Assembly (NCBI RefSeq): GCF_003130585.1
Contig: NZ_QFKX01000003.1
Coordinates: 1 to 64,000 of the forward strand
Source: Brachybacterium endophyticum
GTDB lineage: Bacteria > Actinomycetota > Actinomycetes > Actinomycetales > Dermabacteraceae
DNA: 64,000 nucleotides
Direction: 5' to 3'
Shown here: piece by piece, positions 18,415-61,291 of the stretch
Position numbering within the stretch: position 1 is the first letter of the stretch
How the letters are laid out: each line of letters starts with the position of its first letter
The notes under the pieces: generated by a model
Databases searched by the model: none
The model's input: the letters and a program-made list of their open reading frames with translations, nothing else
What the model was told of the DNA's origin: nothing
Program-made: the position numbers and the translations under genes

Positions 18415-19539
18415 TCAGATCCGCATCGGCATGATCAGGTACTTGTAGTCGCCGTCGGCGTCGCCCTCGAGGGACTCCTGGCCGCTCATCACGGAGGGCT
18501 TGATGGAGTCGGTGAACGTCAGCCGCGCGAAGTCCTCGCCGAGGGCGCTGAGGCCGTCGAGCAGGAAGCCGGAGTTGAAGCCGACCACGAGCTCTTCGCC
18601 CTCGAGCTGCGCCTCGAGGGACTCGGAGGCCTGGGCGTCGTCCCCGGCGCCGGCCTCGAGGGTCACGTTGCCCTCGGTGAAGGAGAAGCGCACGGGGGTG
18701 TTGCGCTCGGCGACCAGGGAGACGCGCTTGACGGCGTCGATGAGGGGCGCGGTCGCGACCACCGCGGTGATCGGGGTGGAGCCGGGGAACAGACGGCGCA
18801 CGGGCGGGTAGTCCCCGTCGACCAGCGTGGAGGTGGTGCGGCGGCCGCCGGCCTCGAAGCCGATCAGGTTCGCCGAGGACTCCTCGGAGATGGCGACGTC
18901 GACGCTTCCGCCGGTCGCGAGCGAACGGGCGACCTCCTGGAGGGTCCGGGCGCGCACCAGGGCGGTGATCTCGAGGTCGGGCCGCGAGGGTCGCCAGGTG
19001 ATCTCGCTCATGGCGAGGCGGTAGCGGTCGGTCGCCATCAGGGTCATCTTCTCGCCGACGATCTCGACGCGGACGCCGGTCAGCAGCGGGAGGGTGTCGT
19101 CCTTGGAGGCGGCGACGGTGACCTGCGAGATCGCTTCGGCGAAGACGTCGGCCGGGATCGATCCCGCGACGGGCGGCATCTCGGGGAGCTGCGGGTACTC
19201 CTCGACGGGCAGGGTGGCCAGCGAGAACGCGGCGCTGCCGCAGCGCACCTCGACCTTGGTGCCCACGAGCTCGATCGAGACGTCCTTGTTGGGCAGCGAG
19301 CGCACGATGTCCGAGAGCATGCGGCCCTGGACGAGGACCTCGCCGGGCACCTCGACCTCGGCGGGAAGGGTGATCTGCGCGCTGACCTCGTAGTCGAAGG
19401 TCGAGAGCAGCAGTTCGCCCGAGCCCTGGGCGAGGATGCGCACCCCCTGCAGGATCGGCATCGCGGGCCGGACGGGGAGCGTACGGGTCGCCCAGGTGAC
19501 GGCGTCACCCAGGACGCCGCGATCGAGGTGGAACTTCAC
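18415..19539 (-). CDS. dnaN: DNA polymerase III sliding clamp (beta subunit)
   Basis: 374 residues. The N-terminus MKFHLDRGVLGDAVTWATRT and the central PVRPAMPILQGVRI are typical of the beta clamp; the C-terminus YKYLIMPMRI matches the conserved end. Three repeated clamp domains are spanned. It forms a ring dimer that tethers polymerase to DNA. I place the start at GTG 19539, 12-15 bases after an AAGGAG; the frame stays open to 19656, but that part has no homology. It is transcribed with recF and dciA. Confidence 0.97.
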   Translation of the reverse strand: MKFHLDRGVLGDAVTWATRTLPVRPAMPILQGVRILAQGSGELLLSTFDYEVSAQITLPAEVEVPGEVLVQGRMLSDIVRSLPNKDVSIELVGTKVEVRCGSAAFSLATLPVEEYPQLPEMPPVAGSIPADVFAEAISQVTVAASKDDTLPLLTGVRVEIVGEKMTLMATDRYRLAMSEITWRPSRPDLEITALVRARTLQEVARSLATGGSVDVAISEESSANLIGFEAGGRRTTSTLVDGDYPPVRRLFPGSTPITAVVATAPLIDAVKRVSLVAERNTPVRFSFTEGNVTLEAGAGDDAQASESLEAQLEGEELVVGFNSGFLLDGLSALGEDFARLTFTDSIKPSVMSGQESLEGDADGDYKYLIMPMRI

Positions 19540-20059
19540 CGTTGCCACTCCTTCGCAGGTGGTCGAGGTCCATGTCGGGAAGATCGCGCCCCGAGATCCT
19601 CGGATCCCCAGGGCGCGGACGTCAGCGTAGCCGTTCGGAGGCACTTCTCGCGACACACCGAATCACACGCTTGACATTCACTGCCCGGATCGCACGGGGC
19701 TCGGAGGCGACGTCCGCGGAGCACGGGACGCCCACTTCTCCACATCAGCAGCGGAACAAGAACAGGATTCCTCTTCTTCACGGCTGTTGATGTCGTGGAA
19801 AACCTGCATCACTGCAGGACACACCCACGAACCTCATCGTGAACGACACGTTGACGACAGTCAGGACGTTGTGGGAGCTCTGTGCACAAACGCCCGATAC
19901 GGGCGCTCAGGACGCTCAGAACCGTGCACACCGTCCCCTGCGGGAACGCTCGTCGCTCCACATTGTCCACATAGTTGTTCACACTGGGGACAGAGTCGCC
20001 ACGACCAGCCATGTGATCCCGGTACGACTCCGAGGAGCCTCGAACCGGCCCAGGAACCC
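19540..20059. other. dnaA-dnaN intergenic region with degenerate DnaA boxes (candidate oriC)
   Basis: This 520-base gap has no gene. DnaA-box-like sites on the plus strand are TTCTCCACA (19736-19744), TTGTCCACA (19963-19971) and TTGTTCACA (19975-19983). On the minus strand there are TTTTCCACG (19794-19802) and TTGTGCACA (19881-19889). The stretch 19750-19805 is clearly richer in A and T than its surroundings. In many actinobacteria oriC lies exactly here, so this remains the default candidate even though no box is perfect. Confidence 0.55.
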
Positions 20060-21781
20060 TCAGGCGTCCTTCGAGCTCGAGTTCTTGATCCTGGCGGTCA
20101 GCTCCGTCACCTGGTTGAAGATCGCCCGACGTTCCTTCATGAGCTCGGAGATCTTCTTGTTCGCATGCATGACGGTGGTGTGGTCACGCCCGCCGAACTC
20201 CTCGCCGATGCGGATCAGCGGCATGTCGGTGAGCTCACGGCACAGGTACATGGCGATCTGTCGAGCGGTGACGAGGATCCTGGTGCGGGCACCGCCGGTG
20301 ATCTGGTCGACCTGCAGACCGAAGTACGCGGCGGTCTGGGCGATGATCGTCGAGGCGGTGACCTCGGCGCCGTCGTCGTGGGCGAGGAGGTCCTTGAGCA
20401 CGCTCTCGGCGAGGGAGACGTCCATCGGCTGCCGGGACAGCGAGTGCAGGGCCTGGACGCGGATCAGTGCGCCCTCGAGCTCACGGATGTTGGTGGAGAT
20501 GCGCGAGGCGATGTACTCCAGGACGTCCCGGGGGACCTCCTTGGTGCCCTCCATCTCGACCTTCTTGCGGAGGATCGCGATGCGGGTCTCGAGGTCCGGC
20601 GGCTGCACGTCCGTCATCAGCCCCATCTCGAAGCGGGAGCGCATGCGGTCCTCGAAGCCTCCGAGCTGCTTGGGCGGCAGGTCGGAGGTGATCACGATCT
20701 GCTTGTCGGCGTTGTGCAGCGTGTTGAACGTATGGAAGAAGGCCTCCATCGTCTCGGGCGCCCGCTGCAGGAACTGGATGTCGTCGATGAGCAGGATGTC
20801 GATGTCGCGGTAGCGGCGGTGGAACTCCTGAGCCTTGCCGAACTGACCGGACTGCACGGAGTTGATGAAGTCGTTGGTGAACTCCTCCGAGTTCACGTAC
20901 CGCACCTCGACGCCCGGGTACAGCGACTGCGCATAGTGCCCGACGGCGTGCAGCAGGTGGGTCTTGCCCAGTCCCGACCCGCCGTAGATGAACAGGGGGT
21001 TGTAGGCGCGAGCAGGGGCCTCGGCGACGGCCGAGGCGGCGGCCTGGGCGAAGCGGTTGGAAGAGCCGATCACGAAGGTGTCGAAGGTGTACTTCGCGTT
21101 CAGCCGGGAGTCCGAACCGAGGGTGGACTCCTCGTCGTCCGGTGGCGGCGTCGCGGAGGTGGTCGCCCGAGCGGCAGAGGGGAACGAGTAGCTCGCCCGC
21201 CCGGCGGGGGCGGCATCCTCCGCCGACGGGGCGGTGCTCTCACGAGCGGCCCACTCGGGATCCTGCCGGCCCAGCCGGGGGGCGTCGTCGTTCGGGGCCG
21301 TCCCGCGCTGCTGCCACGCGGGCTCTCCCGGTTCGGCCGAGGACTGCCCGGATCGAGGGGCCAGGGAGGAGCGCTCGTCGGCGTCCGTGCGGGGCTCCGA
21401 GGCCGACGGACGCGTCGAGTTATCCACAACCGGGTCCACAGTCGCGGTGGACGCGTCGGCCGTGGCGCGGGGTGCGGCCGGCGCGCCGCGCACGGGCTCC
21501 GGGTCGTCCTCGAACAGGGACTCGTCGACGGTGACCGCGAACCGGGTCTCCCGACCCGTGGCCTCGCACAGCGCCTCCTTCAGAGCACCGGCGATGCGCT
21601 GCTCGAAGAGGTCCTTCGCCCAGGTGGAAGGGGCCGCGACCAGTGCGGTGTCCGCCACGACGGCCATCAGTCGGGAGAGGGTCAGGAACGCCATCGCGCG
21701 TTCGCTGACGTTCTCGTCGCGACGGAGGATCCGCAGGGTCTCCTCCCAGGTCGCGTCGTAGTCGACCGATGTCTCGTCCAT
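20060..21781 (-). CDS. dnaA: Chromosomal replication initiator DnaA
   Basis: 573 residues. Domain I (about 1-85) is followed by an unusually long Pro/Ala/Arg/Ser-rich linker (about 90-225). The AAA+ domain has Walker [16 protein letters not shown] (about residue 265) and Walker [12 protein letters not shown] (about 328). The C-terminal DNA-binding domain carries the DnaA signature [15 protein letters not shown] (about 530-545). DnaA-ATP binds TTATCCACA boxes and melts oriC. A perfect box (21420-21428) lies inside its own linker-coding region. It is divergent from rpmH, and the gap between them contains further boxes. Confidence 0.98.
21420..21428 (+). promoter_or_regulatory. Perfect DnaA box inside dnaA
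   Basis: TTATCCACA matches the DnaA consensus exactly. It lies in the dnaA linker-coding segment, where the gene reads VVDNS. It may be chance, or it may serve autoregulation or DnaA binding near the origin. Confidence 0.5.
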
Positions 21782-22174
21782 GCTGCTCTCCGTACGGGCT
21801 CAGGGTTGTCCACCCAGTTTTCCACAGCTTCGCGGCATCTGGGGACAAGTGGTGGCTGACCACGCACGACGGTGCGACGGGGTGGCAGGATCACAGGGAG
21901 TGGACGCTTCGGGAGCCCGTGGGACCCCGCGTGATGCGCTCGGCGACGGTGAGAATCGCACCACAATCGGGCTGACCAGCGCCGTGTTCGTTGACCCCCT
22001 CGGCGGCCGAGCCTAGGATCGTGCAGTCGTCGCTGTGCCGTCCTCGAGGTCGGCGGAGTCGCACGGAGCAGGACCCTCCCGGGCCCGCACCGGTAGCGCC
22101 CGCCCCCGTGCTCGTGCAGCGGCCCCAGAGCCACCGCGAGAGGCACGCCCCTGTGCCGCGATCGAGGAGAACCG
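21782..22174. other. dnaA-rpmH divergent intergenic region
   Basis: This 390-base gap has no gene. DnaA-box-like TTGTCCACC (21806-21814) and TTTTCCACA (21818-21826) lie directly in front of dnaA and could mediate autorepression. The rpmH promoter (21991-22019) is at the right. Gene direction switches here from minus to plus, as expected beside the replication origin. Confidence 0.6.
21991..22019 (+). promoter_or_regulatory. rpmH promoter
   Basis: TTGACC (21991-21996) and TAGGAT (22014-22019) are separated by 17 bases, an excellent housekeeping sigma promoter. The predicted leader before rpmH is about 150 bases. It probably drives rpmH, rnpA and yidD, and possibly yidC. Confidence 0.65.
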
Positions 22175-25062: not shown

Positions 25063-25772
25063 TGGCGGAGGTCGAGCGGGCCCACGGGCCGGCCCTCCCG
25101 GAGCACCTTCGTGAGGTCGCGGGACGTCTGCTGGGGGATCGCCTCGAGCTGGCGGAGCGTTTCGTCGCGATGCTCGCGACGGACGGTCTCGAGCGCGGAT
25201 TGATCGGTCCGCGCGAGGTGGACCGGCTGTGGGAACGCCACGTGATCAACTGCGCCCTGCTGGTGGACGCGATAGGTCCGGAGGCGCGCACCCTTGCCGA
25301 CATCGGCTCCGGGGCGGGGCTGCCCGGCGTGGTCCTCGCCATCGCTCGGCCTGACCTGCGGATCACTCTTGTGGAGACCATGCAGCGTCGTGCCGTCTGG
25401 CTCGAGGAGGTCACGGACGTGCTCGGTCTGGACGTCGAGGTCGTGCGTGCACGCGCGGAGGATCTGCACGGAGACCGCACTTTCGACGTGGTCACCGCGC
25501 GCGCCGTCGCCGCCCTGGGGAAGCTCGCCGGATGGACCCTTCCCCTGGTCTCCGACGGTGGCGAGCTGCTGGCCCTCAAGGGCATCTCCGCGGCCGACGA
25601 GATCGAGGCCGCGGGGAAGGCCCTGCGCCGCGTCAAGGGCACCGATCCCCAGGTGCTGACCCTCGGCTCGGGAGAGGTCGAGGTTCCTACTACAGTGGTC
25701 CGGGTGCGCCGGGGCCCGTCGACGACGGACCCGCATGCCGCTGGGACGAGGAAGGGAGAGGGACGTGGCTGA
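25062..25772 (+). CDS. rsmG: 16S rRNA (guanine527-N7)-methyltransferase RsmG
   Basis: 236 residues. The SAM-binding site is LADIGSGAGLPGVVLAIARP (about 76-95), preceded by the family block LWERHVINCALLVDAIG and followed by TARAVAALGKLAGW. It methylates G527 of 16S rRNA; loss of this activity gives low-level streptomycin resistance in other species. Its 3' end overlaps the parA start by eight bases, the usual gidB-parA arrangement. Confidence 0.96.
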   Translation: MAEVERAHGPALPEHLREVAGRLLGDRLELAERFVAMLATDGLERGLIGPREVDRLWERHVINCALLVDAIGPEARTLADIGSGAGLPGVVLAIARPDLRITLVETMQRRAVWLEEVTDVLGLDVEVVRARAEDLHGDRTFDVVTARAVAALGKLAGWTLPLVSDGGELLALKGISAADEIEAAGKALRRVKGTDPQVLTLGSGEVEVPTTVVRVRRGPSTTDPHAAGTRKGEGRG

Positions 25773-26688
25773 GAGCCGCAGCCGATCCGCCGGGAGCACC
25801 GGGAACATGGACGACACCCCTCTCATGCGCCAGCTCGCCCGGGACCATGCCCGCCGACGGGAATTGGAGGGACTCGTGTTCGATGCTCCCGAGAGCACGC
25901 GCGTGATCACCGTCGCCAACCAGAAGGGCGGCGTGGGCAAGACCTCCACGACCGTGAACCTGGCGGCGGCCCTGGCGATGGGCGGACTGAAGGTCCTGGT
26001 CATCGACATGGACCCGCAGGGCAACGCCTCCACCGCCCTGGGCGTGGATCACCGGTCCGAGGTGGCAGGGATGTACGACGTGCTCGTCGAGTCGACCCCG
26101 CTGGAGGACGTGGTCCAGGAGGTCGGCGAGGTCGAGGGCATGCTGTGCGCCCCCGCCACGATCGATCTCTCGGGCGCGGAGATCGAGCTGGTCTCGATGG
26201 TCGCTCGCGAGAACCGTCTGCGCGGCTCGATCCGCGACTACCTCGCCTCCCGGGAGACCGATGGTGGCCAGCGTCTGGACTACGTCCTGATCGACTGCCC
26301 GCCGAGCCTGGGCCTGCTGACCGTGAACTCTCTGGTCGCGGCCCGCGAGGTGCTGATCCCGATCCAGGCGGAGTACTACGCACTCGAAGGGCTGACGCTA
26401 CTGCTGAAGAACATCGATCTGCTGCGCCAGCACCTGAACCCCGAGCTCGAGGTCTCCTCAATCCTGCTGACGATGTACGACGCCCGCACCCGGCTCGCCG
26501 CGCAGGTCGCCCAGGACGTGCGCACGCACTTCCCGGATCAGACCTTCGAGACCACGATCCCGCGGTCGGTCCGGATCTCCGAGGCGCCGAGCTATGGCCA
26601 GACGGTGTTGTCGTACGATCCCACGAGCAGCGGAGCGCTGGCCTATCGGGCAGCAGCTCGGGAGATCTCCACTCGTCCCGCCCCTTGA
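25765..26688 (+). CDS. parA: Chromosome-partitioning ATPase ParA (Soj)
   Basis: 307 residues. The deviant Walker A motif is ANQKGGVGKTSTTVNLAAAL (about residues 46-65). Walker A' VLVIDMDPQGNAST and Walker B YVLIDCPPSLGLL follow. ParA-ATP dimers coat the nucleoid and pull ParB-parS complexes apart. I chose GTG 25765 (MAESRSRSAG) because AAGGGAGAGG precedes it at a normal distance; the in-frame ATG 25735 would lie deep in rsmG. parB follows after 100 bases. Confidence 0.97.
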   Translation: MAESRSRSAGSTGNMDDTPLMRQLARDHARRRELEGLVFDAPESTRVITVANQKGGVGKTSTTVNLAAALAMGGLKVLVIDMDPQGNASTALGVDHRSEVAGMYDVLVESTPLEDVVQEVGEVEGMLCAPATIDLSGAEIELVSMVARENRLRGSIRDYLASRETDGGQRLDYVLIDCPPSLGLLTVNSLVAAREVLIPIQAEYYALEGLTLLLKNIDLLRQHLNPELEVSSILLTMYDARTRLAAQVAQDVRTHFPDQTFETTIPRSVRISEAPSYGQTVLSYDPTSSGALAYRAAAREISTRPAP

Positions 26689-26788
26689 CCTGCGGCGTAG
26701 GACGCCGAAGAGATCTTGACCCCCATGATGGGTTCACGCGGCAGGGATGCTTCGAGAATCCGGACGATCATTGAGCAGTGAGGATGCC

Positions 26789-28870
26789 ATGACGCAGAAG
26801 CGAGGACTCGGACGAGGTCTGGGTGCGCTGATCCCCGGGGGATCGTCGACCCCCGCCGAGCAGCCTCTGCGCACGCGCAGCCATCCGCGGACCTCGGCCG
26901 ATCCGGGAGAGCCCGGCGCCAGCAGTCGCCCGGTCGACATGTTCTTCTCCGGCGATCCCGCCGAGGCAGGCGCTCAGGAGCGTGAGCGCGGCGTGCGCGG
27001 CGACATCGCCGGAGACATGGCACGGGACGCCCGCAAGAAGCGTGCGGCCTCGCGCACCTCCTCGCGAGCGAACCGTGGGCGCAGCAGCATCGCGGAACGC
27101 ACGGTCGAGCCCGCCGCGGCGCCGAGCGCGAGCACCGAGGACGCCCCGGCCACGAGCACGTCGCAGAAGACCCCGTCCGACGCGTCGACCACCACCGCCC
27201 GGACCGCGTCGGCGGGGAAGAAGAGCACCAAGGGGACGCAGGCCGACACGTCGACCGACAGCACGTCCTCGACCGCGCGTGCGTCTGCCCCCACGGCGTC
27301 GACCAGCAAGACCTCGACGTCCAAGGCCTCCACGTCCAAGAGTTCGACGTCGAAGACCTCCACGTCGAAGAGCTCGACGACCGGGAGCACTGCGAAGAGG
27401 AGCTCGACGACCTCGTCCGGCCCGACGTCGTCGAAGACCGCCGGGAGTACGACCGCTGCGGACAAGACCCCCGCCAGGACGGCCGAGAAGGCTCCAGCGA
27501 GGACGGCGGAGAAGGCGTCCACGAAGACGTCGGACAAGGCGCCCACGAAGACCGCCGAGAAGGCGCCCTCGGCGGCTTCCGCACCGAAGAAGCAGACGGA
27601 GACGCCCCCGACGCCGGAGCCTGCCGCAGCGGAGGCCACGACGGCGGAGACATCGCCGCATCCGACTCCGGAAGCGTCCGCACCGAAGGACGGCCGGTCC
27701 CTCGAGGACAGCCCCGTCGTCGACGTCCAGCCCGGACATCGCTTCCCCGCACGCGAGGAAACATCCGCGGCTCCCGACGACGATGCCGTTGCTGCTCCGT
27801 CCGAGCCGGTCTCCACCGAGGACGCCGTCGAGAGCAGCTCGTCGGATGCGGAGCCCGCCGAGGACACCGACGTCACTGCCGGCCCGGAACAGGGTTCGGA
27901 TCCGACTCCGGAATCGCAGGTGGACGAGGGTCAGGACCAGGCTCGTCCGGGTGAGCGACCGAGCGCTGAGGACGATGCCGAGTCCCGCCGAGAAGAAGAC
28001 TCCGTCGCCCTGGAGGGTGACAACGATCTGATGCCCGTCCCCGGGGCCGAGTTCGCCGAGATCCCGATCCACGAGATCCGTGAGAACCCGCGCAACCCCC
28101 GTACCGATTTCGACGACGACCAGCTCGACGAGCTCGCTTTCTCCCTTCGCGAGGTCGGCGTCCTGCAGCCGGTCGTGGTGCGCCCGATCCAGGTCAGCGA
28201 TGCCGGTGAGTCGTTCGAGCTCGTCATGGGTGAGCGTCGCTGGCGCGCGGCGCGCCGGGCAGGTCTCGAGACCATCCCCGCCATCATCCGTGCGACCAGC
28301 GACGACGATCTGCTCCGAGACGCTCTGCTGGAGAACCTGCACCGCACGGAGCTGAACCCCCTCGAAGAGGCGGCTGCGTACCAGCAGCTTCTCGAGGACT
28401 TCGGGTGCACACAGGACGAGCTGGCGGATCGTATCGGCCGTTCGCGCCCGCAGATCTCCAACACGTTGCGGCTGATGCGCCTTCCCGCGCTCGTGCAGAG
28501 GCGACTCGCGAGCGGGGCCCTGTCCGCCGGGCACGCTCGCGCTCTCCTTGCCGTAGAGGACCCCCGTCTGCAGGAAGAGTTGGCACAGAGGATCGTGGCG
28601 GACGGTCTGTCCGTGCGCGAGACCGAGCGTCTGGCCTCTCGCGGCACCGAGCCGGCGTCCGCGGGTCCCAACCGTCGTCGGACGAGCTACAACCCGCGCG
28701 TCGTGGACCTCACCAGCCGGCTGTCGAACCGACTGGAAGCACCGGTGAAGATCGACGTCGGCAAGCGCAAGGGTCGGATCACGATGGAGTTCACCAACCT
28801 CGATGATCTCGAGCGACTGGCTGAGCGCATCGGGCTGGAGCTCGGGGAGGGCTTCTCCCCTCAGGAGTAG
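26789..28870 (+). CDS. parB: Chromosome-partitioning protein ParB with giant low-complexity insert
   Basis: 693 residues, about twice the usual 300-380. The ParA-interacting N-terminus is MTQKRGLGRGLGALIPGG. Residues of roughly 85-410 are Ser/Thr/Lys/Ala-rich, then acidic, with STSK and ARTAEKAP-type repeats. The ParB/CTPase core begins near residue 421 (EFAEIPIHEIRENPRNPR), with GERRWRAARRAG (about 479) and ENLHRTELNPLEEA (about 515). The parS-reading helix-turn-helix is at about 541-566 (TQDELADRIGRSRPQISNTL). The C-terminal dimer domain ends ERLAERIGLELGEGF. It loads at parS and slides as a CTP-bound clamp. GAGGA precedes ATG 26789. A parS array lies directly downstream. Confidence 0.96.
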   Translation: MTQKRGLGRGLGALIPGGSSTPAEQPLRTRSHPRTSADPGEPGASSRPVDMFFSGDPAEAGAQERERGVRGDIAGDMARDARKKRAASRTSSRANRGRSSIAERTVEPAAAPSASTEDAPATSTSQKTPSDASTTTARTASAGKKSTKGTQADTSTDSTSSTARASAPTASTSKTSTSKASTSKSSTSKTSTSKSSTTGSTAKRSSTTSSGPTSSKTAGSTTAADKTPARTAEKAPARTAEKASTKTSDKAPTKTAEKAPSAASAPKKQTETPPTPEPAAAEATTAETSPHPTPEASAPKDGRSLEDSPVVDVQPGHRFPAREETSAAPDDDAVAAPSEPVSTEDAVESSSSDAEPAEDTDVTAGPEQGSDPTPESQVDEGQDQARPGERPSAEDDAESRREEDSVALEGDNDLMPVPGAEFAEIPIHEIRENPRNPRTDFDDDQLDELAFSLREVGVLQPVVVRPIQVSDAGESFELVMGERRWRAARRAGLETIPAIIRATSDDDLLRDALLENLHRTELNPLEEAAAYQQLLEDFGCTQDELADRIGRSRPQISNTLRLMRLPALVQRRLASGALSAGHARALLAVEDPRLQEELAQRIVADGLSVRETERLASRGTEPASAGPNRRRTSYNPRVVDLTSRLSNRLEAPVKIDVGKRKGRITMEFTNLDDLERLAERIGLELGEGFSPQE
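27309..27378 (+). repeat. Short tandem repeats coding STSK units in parB
   Basis: Imperfect 12-15 base repeats of the form ACSTCSACGTCSAAG encode about five (T/S)STSK units in the disordered ParB linker. Confidence 0.7.
27473..27568 (+). repeat. Four 24-base repeats in parB
   Basis: Four imperfect 24-base units encode ARTAEKAP, ARTAEKAS, TKTSDKAP and TKTAEKAP. These are lysine-rich octapeptides like those in DNA-binding tails of histone-like proteins. Confidence 0.7.
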
Positions 28871-28886
28871 TGCCCGTACGAACCAC

Positions 28887-28926
28887 GGGGCTCCTTCTCG
28901 CGTCGAGCGGGGAGGGGCCCCTTTTT
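28887..28926 (+). terminator. parB terminator
   Basis: The hairpin GGGGCTCC / GGGGCCCC is followed by TTTTT, a classical intrinsic terminator 17 bases after the parB stop. Confidence 0.8.
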
Positions 28927-29027
28927 GGTGCTGTGGGAGCCGGGTCCCGGATCGTCTGGCGCAGGTGTGCAATCCCGGGTAGCCACTTCGCGGGCATGGC
29001 TAGTCCGCGTGAAGCGAAGGGCGCCGG

Positions 29028-29059
29028 TAATACAATCTCTGATACAAAAGTGTGGTAAC
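29028..29059. other. AT-rich island
   Basis: Only 10 of 32 bases are G or C, in DNA that is otherwise strongly GC-rich. It could be an unwinding element or a promoter; nothing downstream needs a promoter. Confidence 0.4.
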
Positions 29060-29176
29060 TGCACGAAGGGCCTGGCCAGCGGGTTCGGCTGTCTGATACG
29101 CAGTGTCTCGTTGGTGGAGAGAACGTATAGGGGTCAGGTGAGCCCGTGTTGGAGAGTCGGGCTTCGCGGGATCAGG

Positions 29177-29190
29177 GTTTCCCGTGAAAC
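29177..29190. promoter_or_regulatory. parS-like site 1
   Basis: GTTTCCCGTGAAAC differs by one base from the parS core GTTTCACGTGAAAC. Confidence 0.7.
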
Positions 29191-29278
29191 CCCCTCCCCT
29201 GGGGCTAGGTCGCGCCCCAGCTTCTCGGGTAGCGGCCCGCAGTCAGATCCGCCTACTGTGCTGAGGGCTCGCTTCACG

Positions 29279-29292
29279 GTTTCACGTGGAAC
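29279..29292. promoter_or_regulatory. parS-like site 2
   Basis: GTTTCACGTGGAAC has one difference from the parS core. Confidence 0.75.
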
Positions 29293-29341
29293 TGCAGCTG
29301 TATGCGAACGTCGGTGGCGCCTCGCGTGGCACTGCTTCTAA

Positions 29342-29355
29342 GTTCCACGTGAAAC
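29342..29355. promoter_or_regulatory. parS-like site 3
   Basis: GTTCCACGTGAAAC fits GTTNCACGTGAAAC exactly and is the best site of the array. Confidence 0.8.
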
Positions 29356-29506
29356 CGCTCGCACTCGGTGAGGTCACCTCGTCTGCACTGAGGACCAACT
29401 CACGCGTCTTTGCTGCAAGACGGATTCCAGTCCGCCCCCAAATGCCGCGGCGTGCTACGGCTCAACAGGAGGGACGACGATCGCGAGGCGGTGGCACAAC
29501 CCCTCC

Positions 29507-29520
29507 GTTCCACGTGGAAC
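29507..29520. promoter_or_regulatory. parS-like site 4
   Basis: GTTCCACGTGGAAC is a perfect palindrome, with one difference from GTTNCACGTGAAAC. Confidence 0.75.
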
Positions 29521-29633
29521 GTCGGTGCTCACCGGCGACACCACGCCTCCCTAAGCATGGCGCTCAGCACACCGAGCCCGTCCGAGCGCAGCTTCAGACC
29601 TGGACGGGCCGCTTTCGGACGTTGCCCACACAC

Positions 29634-29647
29634 GTTTCAGGTGCAAC
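29634..29647. promoter_or_regulatory. Weak parS-like site 5
   Basis: GTTTCAGGTGCAAC has two differences, including the central CACGTG, so it is probably weak or a relic. Confidence 0.45.
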
Positions 29648-29816
29648 TGGCCGCCCTCCAAGGGGTCATCGGTGGCCAGATCGTCAGGCTCTCTATGGAG
29701 CCCAACCGGACCGCGAGGCACTGCTGCGCGGGCCGAGGTGCTGCCGTTGTCTTCCTCGTACTGGCGGGCATGCGCTGCGCGGGGTGTCCCAGAGCGATGG
29801 CCTTACGCAACGCTTT

Positions 29817-29830
29817 GATTCACGTGAAAC
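29817..29830. promoter_or_regulatory. parS-like site 6
   Basis: GATTCACGTGAAAC has one difference from the core; an identical site starts 37 bases further on. Confidence 0.75.
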
Positions 29831-29853
29831 GTACCCGTCACAGGCAACGCTCT

Positions 29854-29867
29854 GATTCACGTGAAAC
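29854..29867. promoter_or_regulatory. parS-like site 7
   Basis: GATTCACGTGAAAC is identical to site 6; the two lie within a short direct repeat. Confidence 0.75.
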
Positions 29868-30042
29868 CGATCGGTCTCTCGCTCCACCCTGATTCATGCG
29901 AGGCGTGGCGCTCCATCGCGATGGCCGGACAAGGTCACTTCACCCCGTGTCGCGACTATGTGCCGTGTCTTTGTTGAACACTCGAGCCACTTTCGCTGCC
30001 CTCGCTCACGGAGACGGCCGATCCTCAGGCTGACACCGCACC

Positions 30043-30056
30043 GTTTCACGTGCAAC
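30043..30056. promoter_or_regulatory. parS-like site 8
   Basis: GTTTCACGTGCAAC has one difference from the core. Confidence 0.7.
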
Positions 30057-30187
30057 GCACGTACCTAGCAGGCTGAGCCGCATGAGATCCATGCGTGCGT
30101 CACCAACGACCGCCTTGAGCGCTCGCGCGAGCAGAACTGCAGATGGCTTGTGCGACTGTCTACGTGACGCATGGTCTGGCTTGGCTT

Positions 30188-30201
30188 GTTCCACGTGGAA
30201 C
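30188..30201. promoter_or_regulatory. parS-like site 9
   Basis: GTTCCACGTGGAAC is a perfect palindrome, identical to site 4. Confidence 0.75.
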
Positions 30202-30391
30202 GCCCCGAGTGCAGAAGCGCGCTCGTAGGGCGAGAGGGAGCGCGGCGCCGTACGTGGTCCATGGGCATGGATGCCGTCGACGGAAAGCATTGGTGACCTG
30301 GGGTTATGTGGCTCTGCAGCACCAACTCTGAAGACTCGACCTAGCACCCGACTGCCTCGTATCGGAGGGCAGGAGTGGGTCGTGAGCTGTA

Positions 30392-30405
30392 GTTTCACGT
30401 GACAC
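30392..30405. promoter_or_regulatory. parS-like site 10
   Basis: GTTTCACGTGACAC has one difference from the core and is the last site of the array. Confidence 0.7.
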
Positions 30406-30647
30406 GATGCCGCTCGACGTAGCTAAAACGCACGCACCACGATTGAACATCCGCCTCCTCGGGCGGGCCGGGGGAAGAGCGGCGCGCACATCGCGTGCGT
30501 TGCTGTGGACGTTCCTATCGCACGCTCTCCCAAGCGCTGGACACCGATCTCATTCGGCCTCGTGCCCCCAGACGGCGTGGCCAACGAGGCTCCTGTTCGC
30601 GCGTCACAACCTAGCCGCGCATGCGAAGTGCACAGTGTGCATAGTCG

Positions 30648-30896
30648 TGTGGAAAACTGGGTTCAACGGCCGCATAGCAGGGTGCAGGGTGGTGGACAAC
30701 CGAGTCGCGTTGAGTGAGAGCCACATCACAGCCCTCGAGACGAGGCGGCGTTCTTGCAGGTCAGCCGGGTTCTTGCGACAGAGCGCAACCTGGTGCGGAG
30801 CGACGCCTGGTCAGGACAGGCGGGGGACACATTGTGGATAAGTCTGTGGAGAAGGCGCACTTCTGTGTGGAAAGCGGTGTGCGCTGCTGTGGATCA
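30648..30896 (-). promoter_or_regulatory. Cluster of DnaA-box-like sites
   Basis: Six sites in one orientation, written as the minus-strand box: TTTTCCACA (30648-30656), TTGTCCACC (30691-30699), TTATCCACA (30833-30841, perfect), TTCTCCACA (30845-30853), CTTTCCACA (30866-30874) and TGATCCACA (30888-30896). The last four start 12-22 bases apart. The group could be part of oriC, a DnaA-titrating locus, or chance in a region of relaxed composition. Confidence 0.6.
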
Positions 30897-31082
30897 TCGC
30901 CCCGGTATCGATGAAGGTGCACGTGGCCGCGGGGTGTCGTTCCACGGTTCCGTGATCGGTCGATGTCGCCTCTGTACCCGGGGATCGCCTGCCGCGAATG
31001 GTGTGAGGCGGTATCCGGCCGTTCCCGCTCCCGCGCGCTCCCCGGCTCAGTGGTCCCTCGGTAGCCGCGGTGGCATGCTCGA

Positions 31083-31664
31083 TCAGCGCGTGCGCTCTCC
31101 GTCGTGAAGCGTCGTTCTCACGAGCTCGTCGATCTCGTGCTTCGCGGCCGCGCCGATGTGTCGTCGCGAGAGTGCCCACCGTCCGCGGAGTCCGATGTTG
31201 CCGCCCTCGACGTCGGCTCCCTCGATGGCCATCGGTTCCGTGACCGCGAGGTCGGAGTCGGCGTCATCCGCCCCGGGGTGCAGGGAGAACCCTTCGGCGG
31301 AGGAGATGGGCACCTTCGCATCGCGGCCCGTCGCCGGTTCCATATCCGCGCAACGGTCCCGCCCTCGCTGAACATGGGCACGGCCGCCAGGTGTGACGAC
31401 GATCCAGGTCGGCAGCTCGGTGATCGAGAGGGAGTCGAGTATGTCCTCGGCGGGGTCCTCGAGGATCACCGCGAGAACCCTGCTGCCCCACCGAGCCTGC
31501 AATTCCCTCAATAGGGTCGTCGCAGGACGGCAGGGCAGACACCACGAGGCCGTCACCAGAACGATGACGGCCTCGTGAGGGGTCGGTGAATCAGGCCTCG
31601 CGGGCACCGGCGGTCGCGACCTGCTCGGGCTCGTCGTCCTGGAGGGCGAGCCAGCGCTCAGCAT
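31083..31664 (-). CDS. Thioredoxin-like protein
   Basis: Up to 193 residues. The thioredoxin fold is seen in [20 protein letters not shown] (active site CLPC instead of CGPC), then [10 protein letters not shown] and the cis-proline strand [14 protein letters not shown]. The remaining 95 residues are not thioredoxin-like and end in a helix [12 protein letters not shown]. It takes the place of trxA after trxB. The ATG at 31664 overlaps trxB by 74 bases and has no ribosome binding site; GTG 31613 is an alternative. A variant disulfide reductase or thiol-linked regulator is likely. Converges with parB across the centromere region. Confidence 0.7.
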
Positions 31665-32661
31665 CCAGCGCGGCCTGGCAGCCGCTGCCGGCAGCGGTGA
31701 TGGCCTGGCGGTACGTGTGGTCGACGACGTCGCCGGCGGCGAACACGCCCTCGACCGAGGTGTGGGTCGAGCGGCCCTCCACGATGATGTACCCCTGGTC
31801 GTCGAGGGCGACCTTGTCGCGGAACAGCGCCGAGCGGGGCTCGTGTCCGATCGCTTCGAACACCGCCGAGGTGGGCAGCGTGCGCTCCTCCCCGCTCTCG
31901 GTGTCCTTGATCGTCACGGACTCGACCTGCTCCTGGCCGTTGATGCCCACGAGCTGGGCGTTCCAGGCGAACTCCAGCTTGGGGTCGTTCTCGGCGCGAC
32001 GGGCCATGATCTTCGAGGCGCGCAGGGCGTCGCGGCGGTGGATCAGGGTCACCTTGGTCGCGAAACGCGTCAGGAACGTGGCCTCCTCGACCGCGCTGTC
32101 ACCGCCACCGACGACGACGATCTCCTTGTCCTTGAAGAAGAACCCGTCGCAGGTCGCGCACCAGCTGACACCCTTGCCCGAGAGCCGCCGCTCGTCCTCG
32201 ATGCCCAGCTCGCGGTAGGCGGAGCCGGTAGCGATGATCACGGCACGACCGCGGTAGACGGTGCCGTCCTCGAGCGTCACGGTCTTCACGGCACCGTCGA
32301 GCTGGACGTCGATCGCGTCCTCGAAGACGATCTCCGCGCCGAAGCGCTCGGCCTGCTCCTGCATGGTGCCCATCAGATCGGGCCCCATGATGCCGGTGGC
32401 GAAACCGGGGTAGTTCTCCACGTCCGTCGTGGTCATCAGGGCGCCGCCGGCGTCGAGCGCGCCCGCGATGACGACGGGGTTCATCTCCGCGCGGGCCGCG
32501 TAGATCGCGGCCGTGTACCCGGCGGGCCCGGAGCCGACGACGAGGATGTCGTGAACGGTGTCATCGGCGGCAGAGCTGGAGACGCCCTGCGTGGCCGGCG
32601 CGGTCGACGACGCGCTCGAGGGCGTGCCGAGGATGTTCAGGGCCTGGATGGGCTGCGACAT
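31591..32661 (-). CDS. trxB: Thioredoxin-disulfide reductase
   Basis: 356 residues. FAD-binding [20 protein letters not shown] is near residues 41-60. The redox-active CATC pair is in [10 protein letters not shown] (about 169-172), NADPH-binding [13 protein letters not shown] follows, and the C-terminal FAD motif is [17 protein letters not shown]. About 30 extra N-terminal residues precede the fold. It reduces thioredoxin with NADPH. GGAAGG is eight bases before ATG 32661. Upstream lie tandem GGACCGGTCC palindromes. Confidence 0.97.
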
Positions 32662-61096: not shown

Positions 61097-61110
61097 GACA
61101 GCCTCCCAAG

Positions 61111-61153
61111 GGCCGTCTTGTCGCTGTCCGGGTACGGCGCCCCTCGTCCGGGA
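61111..61153 (-). promoter_or_regulatory. Guanidine-III riboswitch (ykkC-III)
   Basis: On the minus strand the blocks CCGGACGAGG, GCGCCGTACCCGG and GACAAGACGG occur in order, with the short spacing of the guanidine-III class. That class is a pseudoknot aptamer known from actinobacteria. It lies 15 bases upstream of the sugE start codon, so the right end of the aptamer is next to the GGGAGG ribosome binding site. Guanidine binding should free translation of the exporter. Confidence 0.9.
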
Positions 61154-61291
61154 ACCCTGTCCTCGGGTTCGATCTCACCGTCGCACGGGAGGGGCGGGGC
61201 GGCAAGGGCAGATGGGTCACCATCGGCGGGCACATGGGATGCTCGGGACGAGGACCCGCCCCACCTCGACACCGGACGACAGGAGTCACCC

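Follow-up and report, generated by a model that had tools for sequence, protein, structure and literature searches.

Close to the dnaA gene of Brachybacterium endophyticum, a cluster of DnaA-box-like sequences on one strand lies next to an array of parS sites, and this arrangement raises the question of what DnaA may do there: whether the cluster is the replication origin itself, the distant half of a bipartite origin, a regulatory locus that binds DnaA away from the origin or a part of the centromere, or whether box-like words have simply accumulated by chance. The coupling of initiation with segregation is understood in few species. The cluster was analyzed in a stretch of 64,000 nucleotides (the window, i.e., positions 1 to 64,000 of contig NZ_QFKX01000003.1, forward strand) and in the corresponding loci of related genomes. 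The features of the locus are as follows:

18415-19656, minus strand: dnaN (protein-family match).
19657-20059: dnaN-dnaA gap, the most probable oriC, in which DnaA boxes or sites resembling them occur at 19736 (+), 19794 (-), 19881 (-), 19963 (+) and 19975 (+).
19768-19791, minus strand: DnaA-trio-like block of the unwinding type (coordinates worked out by hand), with a degenerate box, GCCGT and GAA GAA GAG GAA; window row TTCCTCTTCTTCACGGCTGTTGAT.
20060-21781, minus strand: dnaA (TIGR00362, E 1.1e-146).
Between dnaA and parA: rnpA, yidC, jag and rsmG (protein-family matches).
25735-26688, plus strand: parA (protein-family match).
26747-28870, plus strand: parB (707 aa; TIGR00180 and TIGR04285 match residues 434-639 only).
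28871-31082: intergenic gap towards which parB and the trxA-like gene converge, with both the parS and the DnaA-box arrays (GC 0.635).
29177-30405: parS array from the consensus scan, nine 14-bp sites at 29177, 29279, 29342, 29507, 29817, 29854, 30043, 30188 and 30392.
29634: a weaker parS-like site, extra to the nine.
31083-31664, minus strand: trxA-like gene (weak Thioredoxin match, E 0.00032, below the Pfam cut-off).
31591-32661, minus strand: trxB (protein-family match).

In the gap of ~2.2 kb, the nine parS sites are followed by the DnaA boxes, and the trxA-like gene borders the gap on that side, with ~240 bp from the DnaA-box array to the nearest parS site. parS sites were called at no more than one mismatch to one of four consensus forms (GTTTCACGTGAAAC / GTTCCACGTGGAAC and mixed forms). 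The nine sites are real and 8.9 kb separate the array from the closer end of dnaA, in agreement with the setting given in the earlier note, a cluster beside a parS array and 9 kb from dnaA; the distance from the array to the dnaN-dnaA gap is ~10.6 kb. The DNA-binding domain of the DnaA encoded in the window retains an 11-residue motif that is presumably the reader of TTATCCACA. A hidden gene or promoter was considered as the cause of the gap motifs and rejected, as none of the seven ORFs tested (of nine with at least 80 aa overlapping the gap) gave a Pfam match and a scan for sigma-70-like promoters found none in the gap. One terminator-like hairpin was found directly after parB, at a frequency no higher than in shuffles. 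With regard to the neighbouring genes, the ParB N-terminus (window 26747-28870) carries a low-complexity extension of ~420 aa, rich in Ser/Thr/Ala/Pro, ahead of the known domain; the closest named relatives of this ParB are Brachybacterium species, and the match to several of them starts at residue 14 or 15. The trxA-like gene is divergent (30-46% identity in matched relatives), and the neighbouring trxB is well conserved. At some distance, a Guanidine-III riboswitch (Rfam RF01763, 61.8 bits) is found on the minus strand at 61107-61173.

DnaA-box-like sites in the window were defined by no more than two mismatches to TTATCCACA. Seven such minus-strand sites span 30636-30896, the one at 30636 being weaker, and together with conserved non-box motifs they make up the array:

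30628-30640, plus strand: conserved left-end motif GTGCACAGTGTGC (consensus of the Brachybacterium alignment TGCACAGTGTGCG).
30636-30644, minus strand: weak DnaA-box-like site CTATGCACA, within two mismatches, overlapping the left-end motif.
30648-30656, minus strand: DnaA box TTTTCCACA, the isolated left box, in a conserved set of alignment columns.
30691-30699, minus strand: DnaA-box-like site TTGTCCACC, shared with the close relatives L025 and L026.
30755-30763, plus strand: conserved non-DnaA motif TGCAGGTCA left of the tandem (motif scan).
30833-30841, minus strand: exact DnaA box TTATCCACA, the first of the tandem (box scan).
30845-30853, minus strand: DnaA box TTCTCCACA in 12-bp register (box scan).
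30866-30874, minus strand: DnaA-box-like site CTTTCCACA at offset 33 (usually 34 in relatives).
30888-30896, minus strand: DnaA-box-like site TGATCCACA at offset 55 (most relatives have 46 or 58).

Four of these boxes fall within 64 bp (30833-30896), and the rescan confirmed the earlier description of six minus-strand DnaA-box-like sites, one of them perfect and four within 64 bases. The array is the densest box cluster of the window (seven in less than 300 bp), followed by the dnaN-dnaA gap with five. Sites with no more than one mismatch number nine in the window, four of them in the array, against 1.4 expected, and none of 100 shuffles reached this count. When up to one mismatch was allowed and the third base left free, the array has six sites in 261 bp, a density that did not arise in any of 500 shuffles of the gap under a first-order Markov model, and elsewhere in this genome 16 stretches (320 kb in total, five of them picked for holding box matches) gave at most four boxes per 300 bp. 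The tandem in 12-bp register, TTNTCCACANNNTTNTCCACA (30833-30853), is the sole zero-mismatch match in the 3.55-Mb genome.

The cluster is also a property of the family. From a sample of 47 genomes, 45 (own included) have trxB and the two without it were dropped; the resulting 45 loci are the window and 44 others, 36 counted as Brachybacterium (the same genus) and nine from other genera. All 45 Dermabacteraceae loci have a DnaA-box cluster of 4 to 10 boxes per 300 bp in the parB-trxA/trxB gap, a count inflated by the close relatedness of the genomes, and the conservation in relatives that the earlier note had named as a check is thereby found. In shuffles of each locus' own gap, the observed density was reached by 0/200 for 44 loci and by 1/200 for one; in one case (L046) only 525 bp of the gap is present on the contig. 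In the nine loci of other genera the count per 300 bp is 4 to 6. Outside the family, 36 loci that represent 16 families of the same order have at most 3 boxes per 300 bp, and none reaches four; they stem from 36 of the 110 non-family genomes in the order sample, one to three per family, and were hand-picked for contig context, with one locus lacking trxB (5 kb after parB were scanned) and another having a gap of just 140 bp. One of seven non-family named loci compared, in a Micrococcales MAG of unknown family (L018:5139-5224), carries TTATCCACA three times in exact form and once as a near match, all within less than 90 bp directly after parB, with parS-like sites found at least 1.9 kb from its boxes. 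In view of this four-box cluster the feature may extend outside the family, possibly as an independent case.

The boxes are laid out in a regular manner. In the 45 arrays (470-bp segments) there are 213 boxes on the minus strand and 53 on the plus strand; the commonest same-strand spacing is 12 bp (70 pairs), followed by 34 (39), 46 (38), 58 (21) and 22 and 24 bp (17 each), and the plus-to-minus spacings are 15 (26), 61 (21), 49 (19) and 73 bp (18). A six-box frame, built from the very arrays on which it was scored, fits 31/36 Brachybacterium arrays with no more than 14 of 48 mismatches (shuffled segments, 24 to 30). It fits none of the nine other-genus family loci (16 to 26 mismatches), and their clusters may therefore not be homologous; in the loci of other families, 12-20 kb long, no position fits with fewer than 19 mismatches. 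In the alignment of 36 Brachybacterium sequences the mean consensus is 0.83 in box columns, which were defined by the box matches themselves, versus 0.52 in other columns. Conserved non-box motifs in the alignment are TGCACAGTGTGCG at the left end (its 8-mer ACAGTGTG is present in 32/36 Brachybacterium arrays), TGCAGGTCAG to the left of the tandem and, on its right, two motifs that are not intact in the window, GCACGTCAG and TTGACA. The motif GCAGGTCA occurs in 25/36 Brachybacterium arrays and 19/30 dnaN-dnaA gaps (raw counts without a null) and shows a candidate likeness to the MtrA site GTCACAGCG given in PMC4285127. Although it recurs in the array and the oriC gap, it was rejected as an origin-specific protein site, since the genome has as many as 63 exact TGCAGGTCA sites.

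The window copy is worn: it lacks the plus box and shows a shift of the later boxes. It has 21 of 48 frame mismatches, no better than a chance search, and is among the five non-fitting Brachybacterium arrays; its closest relatives (L025-L027) have 12 to 14. With this poor fit, the missing plus box and only one exact box, function could be reduced in this strain. A worn copy is also what would be expected if the box-like words were due to chance or composition or were a relic without function. That explanation is already contradicted at the family level by the 500 shuffles, by the occurrence of the cluster in every family locus, and by box columns that were kept while the spacers diverged, and we consider it extremely improbable.

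The parS sites accompany the boxes throughout. At no more than one mismatch to the same consensus forms, 42 relatives have 8 to 18 parS sites in the parB-trxA gap, and the parS cluster shares this gap with the DnaA-box cluster in 43/43 loci scanned for parS (two of the 45 family loci, L046 and L054, were omitted for want of a parB match). DnaA boxes are thus found in or beside the parS cluster, as at a DnaA-centromere of the Caulobacter type, with the main array of Brachybacterium located beyond the last parS site. On the other side, a plus/minus box pair 23 bp apart is found within 900 bp after parB in 24/34 Brachybacterium with parB in view (two-mismatch criterion, raw count without a null), and the parS array is therefore usually flanked by DnaA boxes at both ends; in L055 a parS site precedes the pair. 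The same two-mismatch scan revealed no parB-side pair in ten Brachybacterium genomes, that of the window included.

Other DnaA-box sites occur off the origin. In the same genome, a second locus is located at C1:273889-274159 (L069:9890-10160) between convergent rhomboid and pyroglutamyl-peptidase (pcp) genes. It has DNA matches, some of them short, in 33/38 Brachybacterium genomes and lies on the dnaN side of oriC in 14/14 genomes with both loci on one contig, 90 to ~410 kb away (coordinates compared by hand). Among 21 copies (own and 20 others), TGACCTG (reverse of CAGGTCA) is present in 16, the own copy being without it, and TGTCATTC in 18, the same 8-mer being found in 21/30 oriC gaps. This locus is a candidate datA/DARS-like site, and with a second conserved DnaA-box locus the genus seems to use several off-origin DnaA loci. 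Directly upstream of dnaA (window 21806-21826), TTGTCCACC and TTTTCCACA are found 12 bp apart, and TTTCCACA occurs in 31/32 Brachybacterium dnaA-rnpA stretches; these boxes are likely a site of dnaA autoregulation.

Is the array the functional chromosomal origin, as the earlier note had suggested it might be? It has a DnaA-box cluster above chance, as a functional oriC does, and its boxes are more numerous and better than those of the window's dnaN-dnaA gap. The comparison turns on the unwinding element. A DnaA box followed by a GC step and A-centred triplets is the layout of the DnaA-trio unwinding system, and the dnaN-dnaA gap of the relatives has a minus-strand consensus of this kind (DnaA box, GCCGT, GAA GAA GAG GAC), found with 0 to 5 of 24 mismatches in 29/30 readable Brachybacterium gaps (7 in the remaining one) and with 6 to 10 in seven gaps of other genera; all four triplet centres are kept in 24/37 family gaps. 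The best matches to this block in the array have 8-12 of 24 mismatches, the same as shuffled copies (8-12), a contrast that is partly built in because the consensus was taken from the oriC gaps. A trio-like pattern beside TGTGGA also recurs in the dnaN-dnaA gap of 11/23 readable other-family loci (raw count without a shuffle null), and a stricter scan for at least three triplets, which is too strict where the box is degenerate, found 16/37 oriC gaps and 3/45 arrays. Base composition does not separate the two regions, the mean minimum GC in 30 bp being alike in both (0.40 in 45 arrays, 0.41 in 37 oriC gaps). GC skew, by which the earlier note had hoped to place the origin, is compatible with an origin in the array but brought no decision: in one complete relative (trxB 90% identical) the cumulative skew over 420 kb has its minimum in a broad plateau off both sites, on the dnaN side of the dnaN-dnaA gap at a distance of 11 kb (22 kb when measured from the array), and the synonymous (4-fold-site) skew, with genes called by a crude ORF script, is nearly the same on leading (-0.170, 122 genes) and lagging strands (-0.146, 119 genes), too weak to decide at the 10 kb scale. 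Because the unwinding block is missing, we reject the array as the origin in our main reading; it is probably not an unwinding origin, and that it should be the chromosomal origin at all is very improbable. In a role as the far half of a bipartite origin, DnaA oligomers on the array would loop to the dnaN-dnaA gap and help its opening. The 12-bp box spacing and GCAGGTCA are common to both regions, and dimers of actinomycete DnaA domain I could connect distant box clusters; for the Streptomyces oriC, such dimers and a long domain II are proposed to do so in PMC13270200. The known bipartite origins (B. subtilis, Helicobacter) likewise consist of a pair of DnaA-box clusters, of which one carries the unwinding region; their spacer is short, usually dnaA, and their length is up to ~2000 bp according to PMC4285127. 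Here, ~10.6 kb with dnaA, rnpA, yidC, jag, rsmG, parA and parB lie between the clusters, and TGCAGGTCA is common in the genome. The bipartite origin suggested by the earlier note is thus retained as an unlikely reading, with the ~10 kb separation speaking against it.

We favour another reading, to which we give an even chance: the array would be a conserved satellite DnaA locus at the trxA-side edge of the centromere, ~10 kb from oriC, that limits re-initiation. Judging by box identity, spacing and conservation, DnaA may occupy the minus-strand tandem in a cooperative manner that follows its 12-bp register. Being so close to oriC, the array would be copied very soon after initiation, and the doubled array, the parB-side set (where present) and the rhomboid/pcp satellite would draw off free DnaA. 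This withdrawal may help to prevent re-initiation, as has been suggested for the oriC-proximal clusters of B. subtilis. Because the place of the array beside parS is constant, a second role in segregation is conceivable, and the same DnaA complex might, more tentatively, also touch the ParB-parS complex or the timing of segregation. As the cluster is real and conserved and has parS in the same gap, a centromere-coupled DnaA-regulatory locus is a serious reading. Of the datA/DARS-like locus and the initiation-segregation coupling proposed by the earlier note, a real, non-random and family-wide cluster and its sharing of one gap with parS hold, and the regulation and the coupling themselves are predictions from sequence. 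Against the satellite locus, titration alone leaves the fixed place beside parS unexplained, and the worn window copy with its single exact box may function less well in this strain.

A rival reading is centromere coupling of the Caulobacter kind, in which array-bound DnaA would license or trigger the movement of the ParB-parS complex apart from initiation. The joint presence of the array and parS in one gap in all loci scanned argues for it, as does the box pair at the other parS side in 24/34 Brachybacterium, and in Caulobacter DnaA acts at the parS region at sub-initiation levels (PMC6399470). Weighing against it, the parB-side pair is undetected in ten genomes including the window, the main array of Brachybacterium is outside the last parS site and not among the parS sites, and a non-coding gap of this size would tolerate cis elements of any kind; we hold this explanation to be rather unlikely. 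A composite of origin and centromere may also be envisaged for the Dermabacteraceae, above all Brachybacterium, with oriC ~10 kb away. DnaA arrays of fixed geometry would clamp the parS cluster, DnaA oligomers (domain I dimers) would bridge the clamp to oriC, one DnaA-ATP threshold would set both origin opening and ParB-parS release or loading, and doubling of the clamp would shut initiation off. We regard this scheme as quite doubtful and keep the satellite locus as our working interpretation.

The array is family-wide at the centromere edge, has a fixed geometry in most Brachybacterium, and is missing from that gap in the sampled other families. Off-origin DnaA-box clusters as such are already known. 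In Streptomyces, an off-origin cluster near oriC reportedly affects replication; it is not known to lie at parS. A family-wide array attached to an actinobacterial parS cluster was not found described: among the matches listed in the open-access literature, no title or abstract opening dealt with such an array in either Brachybacterium or the Dermabacteraceae. The boxes are compact, extragenic and alterable without touching dnaA, oriC or parS, so that harmless Brachybacterium strains would allow a direct test of a DnaA-at-parS coupling. E. coli datA, DARS1 and DARS2 are, like the array, non-coding loci with several DnaA boxes, and in DARS the boxes and spacings are conserved (PMC4585315 and PMC5295017); what sets the array apart is its location at the centromere and its distance of ~10 kb to oriC. 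For a titration role, the nearest precedent appears to be the DBCs of B. subtilis, which are box clusters outside but near oriC, as the array is. Removal of six oriC-proximal DBCs together led to early initiation (Okumura 2012, as cited in PMC5295017), although the same paper states that none of them is known to play a significant role singly; here, in another phylum, there is one main array with mostly fixed geometry that is tied to the parS gap. For a segregation role, the nearest precedent would be the centromere of Caulobacter crescentus, where DnaA boxes are also found close to the origin and DnaA binds those of the parS region and supports segregation below initiating levels (Mera 2014, as cited in PMC6399470). 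The Dermabacteraceae array differs from it in that the main array stands beside the parS cluster, in an actinobacterium.
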